Source: an uncultured Treponema sp.
Lineage (GTDB): Bacteria > Spirochaetota > Spirochaetia > Treponematales > Treponemataceae
DNA: 48,550 nucleotides
Direction: 5' to 3'
Assembly: GCA_947174385.1 (NCBI GenBank)
Contig: CAMWIU010000003.1
Location: 1 to 48,550, forward strand
Below the pieces are notes generated by a model. The model saw only the letters and a list, made by a program, of their open reading frames with translations. It was not told the origin of the DNA and ran no database searches. Made by a program: the position numbers and the translations under genes. Shown here in pieces: positions 4,727 to 21,209 of the stretch. The first letter of the stretch is position 1, and each line of letters opens with the position of its first letter.

Positions 4727-6532
4727 ATGAAAGACGAAAAAATTCCTTTGCGAAGCGAGATTCCGCAAAGCGACAAGTGGGATTTGTCCACGCTTTTTGA
4801 AAATGATTCTGATTGGGGAGCCGCGCTTTCGCAAATCGAGCGCGATGCGGATGCCGTGGCGCAATTCCAAGGCAGGCTCGGCGAGTGCGCGGAGACTCTG
4901 CGTGCGGCTCTCAAGGCGTATGAGGCGCTTTGGAAAAACGTGGAGCGCGTGGACAACTACGCGAGCCTTTTGCACAATGCCGACGAATCCGACGAACGCG
5001 CCGCTGACATGGAAGGCCGCGCGAACATGGCGAGCACTAAGGCTTCGGCGCAAACGAGCTTTTTTGATTCGGAATTGGCAGCGATTCCGCAGGAAAAAAT
5101 TTCTGCATGGATTGAGCGCGATGATTTTTCCGACTACAAAATCTTCATACAAAAACTGCTTCACGCCCGCGAGCACATTTTGAGCGAAAAGGAAGAGCGG
5201 ATTCTCGCGCTTCAAGGCGAAGCCGCTTTGACCGCGTACAAAACTTTCAGCGTGATGGAAAACGTTGACTTGAACGGCTTGTTCGGAAGCGTGGAAGTGG
5301 ACGGAAAAAAATTGCCGCTCACACAGACGACTTGGACGGAATTTTTGGAAAATCCCGACCGCGCCGTTCGCGAAAAAACTTACAAGCAATTCTATGGCGT
5401 TTTCGAGCAGCATCAAAACACGCTCGCGAATTTGTACGCCGGCAGCGTCAACCAAGACGTTTTCGAATCGCGCGCGCGCGGCTACAAGTCAAGTTTGGAC
5501 GCGGCTTTGTTCGGAAACAAAGTGCCGGAAAATGTCTACCGAAATTTGATTGAAACCGTCCACAAGAATTTTCCCGCGCTTCACAAATATTATTCAATCA
5601 GAAAGCGCGTTTTGGGCGTGGAAGAACTTCGCCATTACGACGTTTATGTTCCGCTCGTGAAGGACGTTCAGACGAAAACTTCTTACGACGAGGCCGTGGA
5701 AATTTGCCGCGAAGCCCTCGCGCCGCTCGGAAGCGAATACACGGACACGCTTTGTGCGGGGCTAAAAGGCGGCTGGGTGGATCGCTATGAAAACCAAGGC
5801 AAGCGAAGCGGCGCGTTTTCGTCGGGCGCGTACACTGGCTATCCGTACATTCTGCTGAATTACAAGGATTCGATTATACGCGATGTTTTTACGATCGCGC
5901 ACGAAGGCGGCCATTCGATGCATTCATATTACAGCGCGAAGTCGAATCCGTTCATGCAATACAACTACACGATTTTCGAAGCGGAAGTGGCGTCCACTTT
6001 CAATGAGGAATTGGTCTTCCGCCACTTGCTGAAAAACGCGAAGGATTCCGCGATGAAAAATTATCTTTTGGCAATGCGCGCTTCCGACATTTTGGCGACG
6101 CTTCACCGCCAGACGATGTTCGCCGAATACGAGCTGAAATGCCACGAGCTTGTCGAAGGCGGCACGCCGCTCACCGCGCCGGTTTTGCGAAAAACTTACC
6201 GCGAATTACTCGAACAATATTTCGGTCCTGAAATGCATTTCGAAGACTCGAGCGACATGGAAGGCCTGCGCATTCCGCATTTTTATTCCGCGTTCTACGT
6301 CTACAAATACGCCACGGGAATAAGCGCGGCTTTGGCTTTGGCGGAAAGAGTTTGCTCGGGCGGCAAAACCGAGCGCGACGATTATTTTGCGTTCCTGAAA
6401 TCGGGCGGCTCGCGTTACCCGATCGAGTCGCTGAAAGTGGCGGGCGTGGACATGGAAAGCGCGGAGCCGATTCAAGCCGCGCTGGACAAATTCTCGCAAA
6501 TCGTTGACGAGCTGGAAATGCAGTTGCTCTAG
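4727..6532 (+). CDS. pepF: Oligoendopeptidase F (M3 metallopeptidase)
   Basis: A 601-aa cytoplasmic zinc peptidase that cuts oligopeptides. The zinc motif HEGGHSMHSYY (His392, Glu393, His396) is followed by the FEAEVASTFNE stretch that supplies the third ligand in M3B enzymes. The N-terminal helical region and overall length match PepF. The start ATG has no clear Shine-Dalgarno: an AGGA 10 nt away overlaps the -10 hexamer, so translation may begin on an almost leaderless transcript. No sign of frameshift. A strong hairpin 50 nt after the stop probably ends transcription. Confidence 0.95.
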   Translation: MKDEKIPLRSEIPQSDKWDLSTLFENDSDWGAALSQIERDADAVAQFQGRLGECAETLRAALKAYEALWKNVERVDNYASLLHNADESDERAADMEGRANMASTKASAQTSFFDSELAAIPQEKISAWIERDDFSDYKIFIQKLLHAREHILSEKEERILALQGEAALTAYKTFSVMENVDLNGLFGSVEVDGKKLPLTQTTWTEFLENPDRAVREKTYKQFYGVFEQHQNTLANLYAGSVNQDVFESRARGYKSSLDAALFGNKVPENVYRNLIETVHKNFPALHKYYSIRKRVLGVEELRHYDVYVPLVKDVQTKTSYDEAVEICREALAPLGSEYTDTLCAGLKGGWVDRYENQGKRSGAFSSGAYTGYPYILLNYKDSIIRDVFTIAHEGGHSMHSYYSAKSNPFMQYNYTIFEAEVASTFNEELVFRHLLKNAKDSAMKNYLLAMRASDILATLHRQTMFAEYELKCHELVEGGTPLTAPVLRKTYRELLEQYFGPEMHFEDSSDMEGLRIPHFYSAFYVYKYATGISAALALAERVCSGGKTERDDYFAFLKSGGSRYPIESLKVAGVDMESAEPIQAALDKFSQIVDELEMQLL

Positions 6533-13482: not shown

Positions 13483-14217
13483 ATGGAAGAAACGGAAGAT
13501 CGATTTTCGCGCACGCAAATTATTTTTGGAAAAGAAAATATGTTGCGCCTCGAAAAATCGCGCGTGGCAATTTTCGGGCTGGGCGGAGTGGGCGGCTATG
13601 TTTTGGAAGCGTTGGCGCGAAGCGGCATCGGCAATTTCGATTTGATTGACAGCGACCGCATTTGCATTTCAAATTTCAATCGGCAGATTCTCGCCACTTC
13701 CAAAACGCTCGGCGAGTTCAAGGCGGACGCGGCGCGAGAGCGCGTGCTTTCGATAAATCCAAATGCGAACGTGAATGCGCGAAAATTTTTTTTTCTTCCA
13801 GAAAATTCAAGTGAATTCGATTTTAAAAATTACGATTATGTTATTGACGCAGTTGACACAGTTTCGGCAAAAATTCAAATCGCGTTGCAAGCGCAATCGG
13901 CAGGAACAAAAGTCATTTCGTGCATGGGAACTGGAAATAAAATCGACCCCTCCCTTTTGAAAGTCGCCGACATTTACGAAACGAGCGTCTGCCCGCTCGC
14001 GCGAGTGATGCGCCACGAACTGAAAAAGCGCGGCATAAAAAATTTGAAAGTCGTATTTTCGACGGAATCGCCGCTCGCGCATGTGGAAGCCGCGCAAAAC
14101 GAAAACGCACAAAATGAAAAAAACCGCGCAGTCGTCGCTTCGACGGCGTTCGTTCCAAGCGTGGCAGGCCTGCTCATCGCAAGCGAAGTCGTGCGCGATT
14201 TGCTCAAAAAAAAGTAG
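13483..14217 (+). CDS. tcdA: tRNA threonylcarbamoyladenosine dehydratase (ThiF/E1-like)
   Basis: A 244-aa E1-like ATP-dependent enzyme. TcdA (CsdL) cyclises t6A37 of tRNA to ct6A. The nucleotide site is GLGGVGGYVLEALARSGIG with the following LIDSD; RFSRTQIIFG at the N-terminus, FNRQI, IDAVDTVSAK and TGNKIDP fit TcdA better than MoeB or ThiF, and no zinc-binding CxxC pairs are seen. The frame is open further upstream, but similarity begins at MEETEDRFSRT and a promoter ends just before this ATG. Its last 14 nt overlap the convergent araC gene. Confidence 0.88.
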   Translation: MEETEDRFSRTQIIFGKENMLRLEKSRVAIFGLGGVGGYVLEALARSGIGNFDLIDSDRICISNFNRQILATSKTLGEFKADAARERVLSINPNANVNARKFFFLPENSSEFDFKNYDYVIDAVDTVSAKIQIALQAQSAGTKVISCMGTGNKIDPSLLKVADIYETSVCPLARVMRHELKKRGIKNLKVVFSTESPLAHVEAAQNENAQNEKNRAVVASTAFVPSVAGLLIASEVVRDLLKKK

Positions 14218-14938
14218 GCATCTTCGTGCGGAATTTCGCGGGCGTTGTGCCGACGATGCGGCGGAATGATTGCGTCCAATAACTTTGATTTGGAAAACCC
14301 AAAATCAATGCAATGTCGCAAAGCGCGCGATCCGTGTACAAAAGCATATTTTTCGAAGCCTCAATCTTTTGCTGCAAAACATATTCCTGAATTTTAAAAC
14401 CAGTCTCCTTGTGAAAAAGCCGCGAAATGTACGATTCGCTCAAGCCCGAAATTCTCGCGAGATCCGCCACGGAAATTTTTTCGTGCAAATTTTCGTAGAT
14501 GTAATTCAAGCAGGAAGAGACATATTTCGAGCAAGGCATTTTTTTCGAAACGATTCGCATTTGCGCCGCGTATTCCAAGCACATTTTTTTGTGGAGCGCG
14601 GAAATTTCCTCCACGTCGGAAAGCGAATCCATCCGCAAAATGTACATGTCGCTTATCGTGTACGCCTGCGAATATTCCATTCCGCCTTCGATGCATTTTC
14701 GCGCCACCATCGCCGCCGTTATCACGAAATGATATTTCAAATTCCGCACAGGATTTTTCGAAAGCACGCCCAATCCGTTTTTTTTGTCCAGCGGCTCTTC
14801 GCACAATTTTTTCACCCGTCTTACATTGCCGGACTTTATCGCCGAATAAAATTCCGATTCGGGAACGAAGCCCGCGCGCAGAAAAATATTTTCCCTGTTT
14901 AGAAATTCTTTGTAAAAAAGATTTTTATTCTTCTTCAT
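14204..14938 (-). CDS. AraC-family transcriptional regulator
   Basis: A 244-aa regulator. The C-terminal 100 residues carry both AraC helix-turn-helix units: ISVADLARISGLSESYISRLF, and later CDIALILGFPNQSYWTQSFRR ending in VGTTPAKFR. The N-terminal part (about 1-130) is helical, with no cupin pattern, so the effector is unknown. It is divergent from the tandem-domain lipoprotein gene. Its own promoter overlaps a 34-bp element repeated upstream of the GH16 gene, so I infer it controls both and itself. There is no Shine-Dalgarno before the ATG, and the -10 ends 7 nt away, suggesting a leaderless mRNA. Confidence 0.9.
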   Translation of the reverse strand: MKKNKNLFYKEFLNRENIFLRAGFVPESEFYSAIKSGNVRRVKKLCEEPLDKKNGLGVLSKNPVRNLKYHFVITAAMVARKCIEGGMEYSQAYTISDMYILRMDSLSDVEEISALHKKMCLEYAAQMRIVSKKMPCSKYVSSCLNYIYENLHEKISVADLARISGLSESYISRLFHKETGFKIQEYVLQQKIEASKNMLLYTDRALCDIALILGFPNQSYWTQSFRRIVGTTPAKFRTKMPTFF

Positions 14939-14945
14939 AATGAAG

Positions 14946-14975
14946 ATTATAGCATGAAATCGACATTTAAAGCAA
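14946..14975 (-). promoter_or_regulatory. araC promoter, leaderless
   Basis: TTGCTT (14970-14975) and TATAAT (14946-14951), spacing 18, minus strand. The ATG at 14938 is 7 nt after the -10. The -35 lies inside the shared 34-bp element, which would allow autorepression. Confidence 0.6.
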
Positions 14976-14990
14976 GAAAAAGATATATTT
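14957..14990 (+). promoter_or_regulatory. Shared 34-bp upstream element, copy 1 (lipoprotein gene)
   Basis: Begins AAATCGACATTTAAAGCA and ends AAAAAGATATATTT. It matches the element at 16441-16474 at 32 of 34 positions, differing only at bases 19 and 20. No strong -10 follows it at 15-20 nt (weak TAGATA at 15014), which fits an activator-dependent promoter. Candidate AraC binding site. Confidence 0.7.
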
Positions 14991-15063: not shown

Positions 15064-16216
15064 ATGAAATTGGCAAAAAAGATTTCAAAAGGAATCGCGC
15101 TCTGCGCGGCTCTCGCAATTATGGGCACTATGGGGGGGGGTAATAACATCTTGTTCTAACGGAAGTGATGATACAGATCCTATTAAAGATCCTGATGTGC
15201 CGCAAAATTGGACTGCAATAGTTGTCAGCAACATTGAAAAATATGAAGGACAAGCAGGAACTGCCAATTACACTGTCACAAAAAACAATAACGGCTCTAT
15301 CACAATTTCACATAATGCGCCTATGGCAAAATATGCGAGCTGCTCTTTCAAACCGAATTTTGGCGATAACAACACACTGTATACGAAGATAACGAACAAT
15401 TCCGATGTGACGGCGACTGTGCAAGTTCAAGTGAACAAAGCTGGAACAGAGGCAAATAAATGGCAACCGACTCCGACCGTTACTGCAGTTTACGTTGATG
15501 GAAAAAAACAAAGTGGCGATGTCATGTACAGCGTGGAACTGACAATACCCGCAAAAGGCAGCGTAGTAATCGCAAACAAATTTGACACTTCAAAAAAACC
15601 CGACACGGTTGCAATCTCGCTTAATTCACAAGAAAAAATTGCTGGTACTGTGGCGAAAGGCAATATCACTGTAAGCGGAATCAGCATGAAAAAGATTATT
15701 AACGAAAGCGAACTTGAAACTCCTACTACTCCGATAACAGGTGGCGAAAAGACGGAAATAAAATTTGATGGTTTTGACGGTTGGGAAAAATACACAGTTG
15801 ATAAAAGCAAAGACAAAGCCGTTACAATTTCTCACGAATCAGCAGTTACTAAAGACAATTGCTGTGGAATGGATATAACCATTGGAAACAATGATACCGT
15901 AGAATGCAAGGTAAAAAACAATGGAAGTGAGACTGCCTATGTCAAAATAAGCATAAAAAATGACACATGGTCAAATAACAATGGATATAAATCTGGACTT
16001 TCTTCTGCTATTATCAATGGAGCCAAGCTTGATTCTGTTGATTATGGTGCACTTGCGGAAATCAAACCAAATGAGACGGCAACTTTTGTTCTGACGTTGA
16101 ATACTAAACTTCCTGAGGCAAATAAGTTTGTCGTATCATTAAACTCAGAAGGTGACAAAGAAAATCCTTCTTCGGGCAGTATCACAATCAGCGAAGCCTA
16201 TATGTGGACTGAATAA
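15064..16216 (+). CDS. Tandem-domain surface lipoprotein, frameshifted at a G9 tract (candidate phase-variable gene)
   Basis: Translation from the ATG at 15064 (AAGGAG 6 nt upstream) gives MKLAKKISKGIALCAALAIM..., then enters a nine-G run (15132-15140) and stops after 31 codons. With eight G (or eleven) the frame joins VITSCSNGSDD, creating a lipobox (ITSC) exactly at the end of the signal peptide, and continues to 16216, about 383 aa in total. The mature part is two homologous beta-rich domains of about 150 residues each (YTVTKNNNGSITISH and YTVDKSKDKAVTISH mark equivalent points), looking like carbohydrate-binding modules but not assignable by eye. As read, the gene is OFF. It shares its upstream element with the GH16 gene, so a glycan-binding role is inferred. 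A sequencing error in the homopolymer is the main alternative. Confidence 0.72.
15132..15140 (+). repeat. Poly-G tract (G9) in the lipoprotein signal peptide
   Basis: Nine consecutive G in the coding strand at codons 23-26. Length nine puts the reading frame out; eight would restore an uninterrupted lipoprotein. Tracts like this vary in length by slipped-strand mispairing. Confidence 0.85.
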
Positions 16217-16252
16217 AAAATTCATTCCTACATCACCAGTTTCTTGAAACAA

Positions 16253-16288
16253 AACATCGCTCGCATTTTTTGCGGGCGATGTTTTTTG
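16253..16288 (+). terminator. Rho-independent terminator after the lipoprotein gene
   Basis: A 12-bp stem (AACATCGCTCGC with GCGGGCGATGTT, one G-T pair), a 7-nt loop, and a run of T. It starts 36 nt after the stop at 16216, which supports the frame ending there being a real expressed gene. Confidence 0.85.
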
Positions 16289-16309
16289 TGCGCGCTGGAT
16301 TCGAGCGGA

Positions 16310-16440: not shown

Positions 16441-16474
16441 AAATCGACATTTAAAGCATAAAAAAGATATATTT
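16441..16474 (+). promoter_or_regulatory. Shared 34-bp upstream element, copy 2 (GH16 gene)
   Basis: Same sequence as 14957-14990 apart from two adjacent bases. A TATAAAAT -10 candidate lies 14-21 nt downstream (16489-16496) and the GH16 start is 70 nt after the element. Candidate binding site of the neighbouring AraC regulator. Confidence 0.7.
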
Positions 16475-16544: not shown

Positions 16545-18416
16545 ATGAAAAATGTTTTTGGAAAGGTCGCTGCTTTCGCGGCGTTTTTTGCTTGCGCGCT
16601 CTCGGCGAATGTCGTCGCGCAAAACAAGACGCTTTCCTACGAAGGCTACTCGCTCAAATGGCAGGACGAGTTCGAAGGCTCGCAGCTCAACCGCGATGAC
16701 TGGAATGTCGAATTGCATCAGCGCGGCTGGGTCAACAACGAAATGCAGGAATATGTGGACAGCGCGGAAAACATTCAGGTGAAAGACGGAAAGTTGATTT
16801 TGCGCCCCGTCACGAAAAACGCCAAGAAAAACTTGTACACTTCCGGCCGCGTGAACACGCAGGGCAAGCACGATTTCAAATACGGCATTATCGAGTGCCG
16901 CGCGAAATTTCCTGCGGGCAAAGGATTTTTGCCGGCGTTTTGGATGATGCCCACCGACGAGCAGTTTTACGGACAGTGGCCTCGCTGCGGCGAAATCGAC
17001 ATCGCGGAAGTTTTGGGGCACGACACGAGCACGGCGTTCGGAACGATTCACCACGGAAATCCGCACAACGAAAGCCAGGGAAAATCCATTTTGGGAAAAA
17101 CCGCATTTTCCGATGATTTCCATAATTTCGCATGCGAATGGGAGCCCGGAAGAATTTCTTGGTACGTCGATGGAAATTTGTATCACACTGAAAACGATTG
17201 GTTTACGAAAAGCGACGGTCAAAAGCCGCATCCGTATCCCGCGCCGTTCAATCAGCCGTTCTATATAATTTTGAATTTGGCGGTGGGTGGAGATTGGCCG
17301 GGAAGCCCGGAAAAGAACGCCACTTATATCGACGGCGCGACTTTCGAAATCGACTACGTTCGCGTCTACCAAAAAGCGTCTTACAATGAGAATGTCGCAA
17401 AGCCGCAAAAAGTCTTGAATTTGAAGAACGCCGATTCAAGCGGAAACTTCGTGACGAACGGAAATTTTTCCGCTAAAGAAAATCTTGGCGATGAAACGGA
17501 CTGGCAGTTCCTTTCGGCCGTGGGCGGAGATGGAGCGGCTTCAATCGAAAATTCCGAAATCCACATCACGACGAAAAAGCCAGGAAACGAAGAATATTCG
17601 ATTCAGCTTGTTCAGGCGAAAATGCCTTTGGTTCAAGGTGGAAAATATCGATTCAGTTTCAAGGCACGCGCCGCCAAAAAACGCACGATGAAAATCGGAG
17701 TGAGCGCGCCCACGCGCAATTGGAAACGCTATCTTAAGGACACTGTGATTTCACTCACGCCTGAAATGAAATCGTATTCGTTCGATTTTACGATGCGCGA
17801 CGAAACTGACGACGCGGCGCGAATCGAATTCAACATGGGAAAGATGGGCTCGACCGCGGACATTTTCATCACCGACGTTCGCTTGGAGCAAACCGGAAAG
17901 GTGGAGCGAAAAACGCCTGCCTACAACGAGGACGCGGACAAAGGCTTGATAAAAAATTCCGAGTTCAACGGCGACCTTATGTTCTTCGAAGTTTTCACGG
18001 ACAATTCTGCAAAGGCGAGCTGCGAAGTGATCGAAGAAGGCGCGAACAATGTTTTGGATTTCAACATCGCAAACACCGGCGACATGGATTGGAAAGTCCA
18101 GCTCATTCAGCGCGGCGTTTCCCTTGAAAAAGGCAAGACCTACGTTCTGCGCCTCAAGGCGAAATCCACGATCAAGCGCGACTTGATGTTTGCGATTCAG
18201 CACGACGGAAGCAAGGACAACAATTGGGACAACTACGCGAGCCAAGCCACAGTTTCGCTCGGCACTGAATTCCAGACGTTCGAAAAGACGTTCAAAATGC
18301 CCGTGGACAATCCGCAGGCGATGTTGAGCGTTTCGATGGGCGCGGTCAGCGGAAAGCGCATTTCCAAAGAGCACCACATTTATCTTGACGACATCACATT
18401 GGAAGAAGCAAAATAA
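16545..18416 (+). CDS. Secreted GH16 beta-glucanase with two CBM4/9-like domains
   Basis: A 623-aa exported glycoside hydrolase. Signal peptide 1-25 (ALSANVVAQ). GH16 domain about 30-285 with WQDEFEG, GRVNTQGKHDFKYG, FWMMP and the catalytic block GEIDIAEVLG (Glu150 nucleophile, Asp152, Glu155 acid/base), giving retaining cleavage of beta-1,3 or beta-1,3-1,4 glucan. Two jelly-roll domains follow (about 295-455 and 465-623), each starting with a (F)VTNGNF or IKNSEFNG turn and ending DVRLEQ or DITLEE, the CBM4/9 pattern. GGAGGG lies 7 nt before the ATG. Followed by a strong terminator. Shares its upstream element with the phase-variable lipoprotein gene. Confidence 0.94.
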   Translation: MKNVFGKVAAFAAFFACALSANVVAQNKTLSYEGYSLKWQDEFEGSQLNRDDWNVELHQRGWVNNEMQEYVDSAENIQVKDGKLILRPVTKNAKKNLYTSGRVNTQGKHDFKYGIIECRAKFPAGKGFLPAFWMMPTDEQFYGQWPRCGEIDIAEVLGHDTSTAFGTIHHGNPHNESQGKSILGKTAFSDDFHNFACEWEPGRISWYVDGNLYHTENDWFTKSDGQKPHPYPAPFNQPFYIILNLAVGGDWPGSPEKNATYIDGATFEIDYVRVYQKASYNENVAKPQKVLNLKNADSSGNFVTNGNFSAKENLGDETDWQFLSAVGGDGAASIENSEIHITTKKPGNEEYSIQLVQAKMPLVQGGKYRFSFKARAAKKRTMKIGVSAPTRNWKRYLKDTVISLTPEMKSYSFDFTMRDETDDAARIEFNMGKMGSTADIFITDVRLEQTGKVERKTPAYNEDADKGLIKNSEFNGDLMFFEVFTDNSAKASCEVIEEGANNVLDFNIANTGDMDWKVQLIQRGVSLEKGKTYVLRLKAKSTIKRDLMFAIQHDGSKDNNWDNYASQATVSLGTEFQTFEKTFKMPVDNPQAMLSVSMGAVSGKRISKEHHIYLDDITLEEAK

Positions 18417-18953: not shown

Positions 18954-21209
18954 TCATGCCGTAACGCGGATTTTCATCGCGTCTTCTTTCGCGTAAGGAT
19001 TCGGGCGGAAAAGCATCACCAAAATGAACGCTAGGAAAGCAAACGCGATTACGGTTGCCGCGCCGAAAACTCCATGCACGAAAAGCATTCCCAGTTGATA
19101 AACGATCATCGTCGCAATGTACGCGAAGACATTTTGGAACACAATCGCAAACCAAAACCATTTTCGATTTTTTAACTCGCTCGCCATCGTCGCGATTGCG
19201 GCAAGGCAAGGCGAATCAAGCAAGTTGAACATCAAAAAGGCGAACGCCGCCAAGCCTGTCGGAAACCATTCTGCAATCGCGTTGCTTACAATTTCCTCGT
19301 CTTCGCTTTCTTCTTCGTCAACTCCCGCCAAAACTCCCATCGTAGAAACAATCGCCTCCTTCGCGCTGAAACCTGAAATCACAGCCGCCGCGCCTTGCCA
19401 ATTTTTGTGAACGCCTTCCGCATCAGTATACGCACCAAAACCAAGCGGTCGGAAAATATAACTCAAGCCGCCGCCGATGTAGCTCAAAATCGATTCGTCC
19501 GCATCGACAAGTGTGAATCCGCCTTCGCTCGCTTCTTGAATCAGCGTGCCGTCTTCCGCATATTCAGCCTCTTTTGGAGACGCGATTCCGTAACTCGAAA
19601 GAAACCAAATCACAAGACATGCGAGAAACAAAATTGTTCCTGCCTTCACCACGAAACTTTTCACGCGCTCCCAAGTGTGAAGCAAAACCGTTTTCGCTTG
19701 AGGAATGTGATATTGCGGAAGTTCCATGACGAACGGCGCGGCAGGCCCGTGAAACGCCTTCGTTTTTTTCAGCATGACTGCGGCAATCAAAACCGAAGCA
19801 ATTCCCACAAGATACATGAGCGGCCCGATGAACGCGGCGCGCGCAGGATCGCCAAACGCTACGCTTCCGATTACAGTCGCCATAAGCGCGATTACAGGAA
19901 GTTTCGCGCCGCATGGAATCCAAGTCGTCGTCATAATTGTCATGCGCCGATCGTTTTCGTTTTCAATCGTGCGGCTCGCCATGATTCCAGGAATTCCGCA
20001 GCCCGAAGAAATCAAAAGCGGAATGAACGATTTCCCGCTCAAGCCGAATTTCCTGAAAAGCCTGTCCATCACGAACGCGATTCGAACCATATAGCCCACG
20101 TCTTCCAAAATCGAAAGCAGCAAAAATAAAATCGCCATTTGCGGAACAAATCCAAGCACCGCGCCCACGCCGCCAATTATTCCGTTCACCACGCAATCGA
20201 CAAGAATTTCGCTTGCGCCCGCGTTCGACATCGCTTCTTCCACCCAGCCTTGAATGCCGCCGACAAAACTGTCGTTCGCCCAATCCGTTGCCATCGTGCC
20301 GACGGTCGAAACCGCAATGTAATAAACGAACCACATCACCAACAAAAATATCGGTATTCCCAAAATGCGATTTGTAACGATGCGGTCGATTTTGTCGGAG
20401 GCCGTCATTTTCGCGCCGCTCTTCACAAGAACGCCGTCAAGCATTTTCGTGATGTATTCGTAGCGTTCATTCGTTATGATTGATTCGATGTCATCATCTT
20501 TGGACTTTTCCAATTTTTTTGAAATCGATTCCGCTTTCTCAAGCAAATCTGAGTTCAAATCAAGACGATCAATCAAATTCGCATCGCGCTCCAAAAGTTT
20601 TATCGCGCTCCATCTTTTCAAATGCGCAGGAATTTTGCTCGGCAAAAGTTCCGCCGCTTCGGAAATCGCCTTTTCAACTTCGACGGAGAAACACGGCTTG
20701 CCCCCCCCAGTCTGCGATTTTTTCTTGCTCGCCTCAAGCGCGGCCGCCAAAACTTCCTTCGTGCCCTTGTTGTGAAGCGCGACGGTTTTTACAATCTTGC
20801 AGCCAAGCCGTTCGGAAAGACGCGCCACGTCGATTTTGTCGCCAGACTTTTCCATCGCGTCAACCATATTCAGCGCAAGCACGACCGGCTTTCCCAATTC
20901 CAAAATCTGAGTCGTCAAATAAAGATTGCGCTCGATGTTCGTAGCGTCAACAATGTTTATCACCGCAGCCGCCTCGTCGCTCGCCAAATAATCGCGCGAA
21001 ACAATTTCCTCGTTCGTGTAAGGCGAAAGCGAATAAATTCCCGGCAAGTCCGTGACAATCACATTTTCCGCGCCACGAACTTTGCCTTCTTTTTTTTCCA
21101 CCGTAACGCCCGGCCAGTTTCCAACATATTGAACCGCACCCGTGAGCGCGTTGAACATCGTGGTTTTTCCGCAATTGGGATTTCCCGCCAAAGCCAATTT
21201 TGTTTCCAT
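18954..21209 (-). CDS. feoB: Ferrous iron transporter FeoB
   Basis: A 751-aa inner-membrane Fe2+ transporter with N-terminal GTPase. G1 GNPNCGKTT (9-17), G3 DLPGIYSLSPY and G4 NMVD are clear, followed by the helical GDI-like spacer and the polytopic Gate region with LISSGCGIPGIMASR. AGGAG lies 8 nt before the ATG. In the linker at residues about 168-170 (TGGGKPC) the coding strand has eight G in a row (20701-20708). The frame is intact at this length, so the gene reads ON. Downstream of two feoA genes on the same strand. Confidence 0.96.
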   Translation of the reverse strand: METKLALAGNPNCGKTTMFNALTGAVQYVGNWPGVTVEKKEGKVRGAENVIVTDLPGIYSLSPYTNEEIVSRDYLASDEAAAVINIVDATNIERNLYLTTQILELGKPVVLALNMVDAMEKSGDKIDVARLSERLGCKIVKTVALHNKGTKEVLAAALEASKKKSQTGGGKPCFSVEVEKAISEAAELLPSKIPAHLKRWSAIKLLERDANLIDRLDLNSDLLEKAESISKKLEKSKDDDIESIITNERYEYITKMLDGVLVKSGAKMTASDKIDRIVTNRILGIPIFLLVMWFVYYIAVSTVGTMATDWANDSFVGGIQGWVEEAMSNAGASEILVDCVVNGIIGGVGAVLGFVPQMAILFLLLSILEDVGYMVRIAFVMDRLFRKFGLSGKSFIPLLISSGCGIPGIMASRTIENENDRRMTIMTTTWIPCGAKLPVIALMATVIGSVAFGDPARAAFIGPLMYLVGIASVLIAAVMLKKTKAFHGPAAPFVMELPQYHIPQAKTVLLHTWERVKSFVVKAGTILFLACLVIWFLSSYGIASPKEAEYAEDGTLIQEASEGGFTLVDADESILSYIGGGLSYIFRPLGFGAYTDAEGVHKNWQGAAAVISGFSAKEAIVSTMGVLAGVDEEESEDEEIVSNAIAEWFPTGLAAFAFLMFNLLDSPCLAAIATMASELKNRKWFWFAIVFQNVFAYIATMIVYQLGMLFVHGVFGAATVIAFAFLAFILVMLFRPNPYAKEDAMKIRVTA
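20701..20708 (-). repeat. Poly-G tract (G8 on coding strand) inside feoB
   Basis: Eight consecutive C on the plus strand, G on the coding strand. A change of one base would truncate FeoB right after its GTPase spacer. Confidence 0.8.

Follow-up and report, generated by a model that had tools for sequence, protein, structure and literature searches.

Introduction

Switching of genes by the gain or loss of G residues in homopolymeric tracts is a known mechanism in Treponema pallidum and Neisseria. The poly-G tract of T. pallidum tprL has mostly nine residues, with a range of 7 to 11 in vivo and a make-up that shifts during infection; among 17 poly-G tracts of this species that were tested, 76% vary (PMC7864442). 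Homopolymers that shift the reading frame at gene starts have also been described as a general device (PMC2831843). A search of open-access literature returned no paper that describes poly-G phase variation in rumen Treponema.

The locus described here lies in a window of 48,550 nucleotides, which is a contig (C3) of the draft metagenome-assembled genome of an uncultured Treponema sp. (G000; 2.30 Mb, 180 contigs, 87% complete). A preliminary description of this DNA had identified a lipoprotein gene switched off by nine G inside its signal peptide and had named G tracts in surface genes as an established phase-variation device of treponemes, for which T. pallidum provides the precedent (PMC7864442). 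The present analysis indicates that the gene is very probably a phase-variable contingency locus, in which a slippage-prone tract of nine G controls what is probably a beta-glucan-binding surface lipoprotein. Beyond the preliminary description, it adds the predicted type of the protein, a promoter common with a GH16 gene and a repertoire of approximately 57 tracts.

Results

Structure of the gene and its G tract

The ATG at 15064 is preceded by AAGGAG, and the signal region MKLAKKISKGIALCAALAIMGTM that starts from it runs into the G tract, so that the frame as assembled yields the product MKLAKKISKGIALCAALAIMGTMGGGNNILF and ends at the stop codon 15157-15159 (Table 1). The adjacent frame reads ITSCSNGSDD... 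after the tract and remains open for 357 codons until the stop at 16214-16216. The codon GTA (15140-15142) precedes ITSC and completes the lipobox VITSC, which is followed by 353 further residues. Both wrong frames after the nine G reach a stop in six codons or fewer. A basic n-region, a hydrophobic h-region and a lipobox cysteine could all be read from the sequence, divided by the tract over two frames; the run of nine G (threshold of at least eight) separates the start codon from the body, and their frames differ. Dinucleotide shuffles of the window gave 0.24 expected matches to a run of eight G, compared to three seen. The terminator was missing from the list of a simple pattern scan and was scored as strong by folding. 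The reading of the locus in the preliminary description was borne out in each part: the start with a good ribosome site and a signal peptide, the frame broken by nine G with a stop after 31 codons, the lipobox joined to the body one frame over, the uninterrupted two-domain body and the gene's own terminator.

Table 1. Features of the lipoprotein locus and its neighbours (positions in the window).
Feature	Position	Strand	Evidence
AraC-type regulator, divergent upstream neighbour	14204..14938	-	sequence
Lipoprotein-gene promoter element (TCGACA-18-TATATT) with 34-bp surroundings matching the GH16 copy	14957..14990	+	exact pattern match
Assembled reading frame of 31 codons with start, signal peptide, G tract and early stop	15064..15159	+	sequence, ORF reading
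Nine-G tract, proposed switch, flanks AT-G9-TA	15132..15140	+	sequence
Lipobox VITSC, in frame with the body and out of frame with the start codon	15140..15154	+	sequence
Lipoprotein body, 357 codons without interruption, and stop	15143..16216	+	ORF reading
CBM-like domain 1, homologous to domain 2	15200..15712	+	self-comparison, homolog search
CBM-like domain 2; closest folds CBM86, SGBP-B, CBM29	15746..16213	+	model pLDDT 86
Terminator hairpin followed by a T run	16249..16289	+	folding: MFE -23.5 kcal/mol, z -4.3
Copy of the 34-bp promoter element before the GH16 gene	16441..16474	+	exact pattern match
Secreted GH16 glucanase, signal peptide and CBM4_9 domains, putative partner	16545..18416	+	domain search

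Promoter and neighbouring genes

The 34-bp element was present as two exact matches, one before the lipoprotein gene and one before the GH16 gene, with none expected in shuffles. The rest of the genome held one further match, an 18-mer with two mismatches. Elsewhere in the window, feoB carries an eight-G tract at 20701-20708 on the minus strand and is in frame here; the feoB ortholog of the sister species (G101) has nine G with an adjacent N, and the frames differ.

Predicted structure and relatives of the protein body

No Pfam family scored above its cut-off for the protein body. Comparison of the body with itself showed that the two domains form a tandem repeat (E 2e-11). A single-sequence AlphaFold model of the whole body reached a pLDDT of 38 and was discarded, while domain 2 modelled from a four-sequence alignment produced a beta-sandwich with a pLDDT of 86 and a pTM of 0.85. 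Structural matches to this model were CBM86 (Z 11.6, 120 residues, rmsd 2.6), Bacteroides thetaiotaomicron surface glycan-binding protein B (SGBP-B; Z 11.5), CBM29 (Z 11.1) and CBM4 (Z 9.7), with a sequence identity of 8-17% to these structures. The body domains are predicted to share the beta-sandwich fold of solved CBMs.

A search of the genome collection with the single protein returned no relative, and an alignment-based search of the same collection retrieved one Clostridia protein and two Treponema-group genomes. The domain was found in only three of 200 congeneric genomes, this genome included. The relative in G138 (Treponema sp. RGIG9108, water deer rectum) is an intact lipoprotein of 375 residues with a homologous last domain (39% identity), and it carries a G8-TA tract of its own 18 residues past the lipobox cysteine. 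In the Clostridia protein (L111), which comes from a metagenome-assembled genome, the domain is joined to a GH16 catalytic domain, and another GH16 gene adjoins. Neither the locus nor its relatives were found in the viral contigs searched. Beta-glucan is the likely ligand of the lipoprotein, because of the promoter common with the GH16 gene and the GH16 fusion in Clostridia, and the lipoprotein is probably exposed at the cell surface.

Long G runs in the genome

Approximately 57 tracts of 8 to 10 G were present in the genome, of which 45 were exactly nine G; runs of seven G numbered only five. This is approximately 290-fold over the decay of shorter runs, and the decay from four to seven G predicts approximately 0.18 runs of nine G per genome compared to the 45 found. 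In 398 kb of the genome, runs of 4 to 7 G were counted 416, 61, 11 and 1 times and runs of 8 to 10 G 4, 9 and 1 times. A/T runs behave oppositely, with a steep drop past length 8. Tract lengths in this genome are narrow (8-9), and tracts of at least ten G are scarce.

Tract counts vary widely across the genus Treponema. G138 has 82 tracts of at least eight G, and a sample of it, picked to contain tracts, gave 704, 60, 3 and 1 shorter G runs followed by 21 of eight and 21 of nine G. Within the stretches of the sister species that were examined, 51 of the 74 runs of at least seven G had nine. The named relatives retrieved by the searches were gut or metagenome-assembled Treponema and Spirochaetales. 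The tracts of G138 are strongly enriched at contig ends; a reading of this enrichment as a sign of mixed reads was dropped, as several of these ends are shared repeats. A pair of eight-G and nine-G versions on two contigs of the present genome (C143 and C43) was also discarded, the C143 end being poly-G/C junk.

The dinucleotide TA follows 44 of the 57 tracts compared to 23 of 488 runs of 4-6 G (P 4e-36). The motif G(8-9)TA recurs alike in ORFs and, on either strand, in promoter spacers. The base 5' of the tract is usually T here and in the sister species, and usually C in G138. In the promoters of G138 the TA forms the start of the -10 box, an account that leaves the other contexts uncovered. 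A repeat of approximately CCTCCTATACGTAT-G9-TATAACGACCTAGG was seen between genes at five loci of this genome (L035, L044, L045, L059 and L014), in several copies with eight or nine G, and the element is also present in the sister species. A genome-wide, near-uniform set of eight- to nine-G switches with a TA flank in gut treponemes could imply a dedicated process that fixes tract length and site, and could jointly control glycan-binding lipoproteins, DNA methylases and Cas12a, although this is rather unlikely.

Placement of the tracts and associated genes

The tracts were over-represented and sited at promoters or gene starts. A total of 32 of the 57 lay outside called ORFs, compared to 84% of the DNA being coding (P 7e-12), and 14 of the 25 tracts within ORFs fell in the first 205 nt (4.7 expected, P 1e-5); these figures are approximate, as ORFs were called with a simple custom gene caller. 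Ten tracts were inside -35/-10 spacers that are 15 to 20 nt long.

Phase variation typically affects genes for surface proteins, glycosyltransferases and restriction-modification systems. Genes bearing a tract or lying downstream of one encoded lipoproteins with leucine-rich or FN3 domains, an expansin-like lipoprotein, a predicted outer-membrane beta-barrel, glycosyltransferases, a DNA methylase, a type I specificity subunit, a chemotaxis receptor and Cas12a. The methylase (N6_N4_Mtase) and specificity-subunit genes (L026 and L029) contain G tracts themselves, and at one locus of G138 (L100) two frames reading DPPY methylase motifs adjoin eight-G tracts. From the tracts at these three loci, methylation may possibly be phase-variable.

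Upstream of Cas12a (L030, contig C39, tract at 5640), nine G lie within the spacer of a perfect TTGACA-19-TATAAT promoter, and the nine-G promoter arrangement was seen in three of 24 Treponema Cas12a loci (L148, L149 and L156). This arrangement suggests that CRISPR defence may be phase-variable. No paper on phase-variable Cas12a was found in the open-access literature searched.

Genes of the same design and comparison with related species

Besides this locus, at least five out-of-frame lipoprotein genes have a tract within the signal-peptide region or shortly past it. In L010, L012, L019, L049 and L038 the tract splits the signal-peptide frame from the body frame; in the paralogs L010 and L012 it lies within the signal peptide itself. 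A relative of these two paralogs in the sister species has ten G in its signal peptide and reads openly from ATG through signal and lipobox into the body with no stop. The sister-species ortholog of L019 likewise reads through, and that of L049 is out of frame. Two further nine-G genes of the present genome (L026 and L042) are in frame as assembled.

In aligned pairs with the sister species, length had changed in 5 of 15 G tracts compared to 5 of 51 A/T runs of at least seven (P 0.04), one of the five changed G tracts (L039) being an indel beside the tract rather than in it. A tract of ten G (L053) against eight G (L213) is a further length change outside the filter of these 15. Counting against switching, the range of tract lengths is narrow, many orthologous tracts are equal in length in the sister species, the excess over A/T runs is modest, and in the closest gene from outside the species the tract is at another position than here. 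No ortholog of the present lipoprotein gene from the sister species was among the domain matches listed for the 200 congeneric genomes. The differences in length and frame support switching by comparison and are no proof for the nine G of this gene.

Discussion

The nine-G tract most likely belongs to a genome-wide set of on/off switches, and is neither an error nor the mark of a dead gene, because nearly 60 such G runs stand at promoters and gene starts. Slipped-strand mispairing would add or remove G residues in the signal-peptide tract, and each gain or loss would shift the start codon into or out of frame with the lipobox and body. The in-frame state would give a lipoprotein that is exported and carries two CBM-like domains in tandem, under a promoter of the same type as that of the GH16 glucanase; the out-of-frame state, as assembled, would give a 31-residue peptide alone. 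The glucanase would stay on while the lipoprotein toggles. We infer that this tract varies in the population, with slippage as the mechanism. The switch proposed in the preliminary description is supported by the genome-wide excess of 8 to 10 G, the bias towards promoters and gene starts, the out-of-frame lipoprotein genes of the same design, some with in-frame counterparts in the sister species, and the relative with an eight-G tract of its own.

The open body, the gene's own terminator and the promoter common with the GH16 gene also speak for switching, and they bear on the possibility of a pseudogene, in which a one-off frameshift in a G-rich stretch would leave the gene to decay with no switching back. 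The gene is indeed out of frame as assembled and, with its domain in so few congeneric genomes, it is therefore dispensable. However, the 357 codons hold no other lesion, promoter and terminator are intact, and decay yields no pattern in which one type of tract recurs at approximately 57 sites with a strong 5' and promoter bias, which makes a pseudogene quite improbable. An error of sequencing or assembly, whereby the real number of G differs and the gene is plainly in frame, deserves thought in a draft assembly with poly-G junk at some contig ends, since homopolymers are error-prone. The two other nine-G genes that are in frame nevertheless show that no uniform miscount took place, and a long tract, the basis of the switch, exists regardless of a one-base error, leaving this account with very little probability.

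Least probable of all is recoding at the level of expression, by which RNA polymerase slippage or ribosomal frameshifting would allow a gene fixed at nine G to yield some full-length protein. The narrow length of 8-9 with conserved flanks and the same frame offset at several nine-G lipoprotein loci would fit such recoding, but the identical tract and flank are also seen in promoter spacers and elsewhere between genes, where translation plays no part, and relatives are in frame at the DNA level.

If the gene does switch, glycan capture by a commensal spirochaete would be a bet-hedged, all-or-none trait, and a clonal population would contain both cells that make the binding protein and cells that lack it, with the co-expressed glucanase remaining on. 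G-tract phase variation would span dozens of gut-treponeme genes, among them genes of phage defence, and would be open to study in non-pathogens, beyond T. pallidum. What stands out is the large repertoire of gut treponemes, the glycan-capture target, the G(8-9)TA motif and the nine G in the Cas12a promoter.

Compared with known systems, the predicted protein resembles CBM86, CBM29, CBM4 and B. thetaiotaomicron SGBP-B in its beta-sandwich fold, with a lipoprotein anchor and a link to GH16 by promoter and by fusion elsewhere; it differs from them in its low identity and lack of a Pfam family over the cut-off, and glycan binding is putative here. As in Listeria monocytogenes inlA and the survey of Orsi et al. 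(PMC2831843), a homopolymer near the gene start decides between a short peptide and a full protein, whereas the inlA tract is of A and the present one is of G, within a large nine-G repertoire with a conserved TA flank. The closest likeness is to T. pallidum tprE/G/J, tprL and tp0126 (PMC7864442), where poly-G tracts of approximately 8-10, with a mode of nine in tprL, are found at surface-protein genes, and the ten spacer tracts of this genome resemble the promoter-spacer tracts of that species. In contrast to tpr and tp0126, where the tract acts on transcription, the present tract lies in the signal-peptide coding region and would act on the reading frame, and it belongs to approximately 57 tracts in a gut species, compared to the 17 tested in the T. 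pallidum study.
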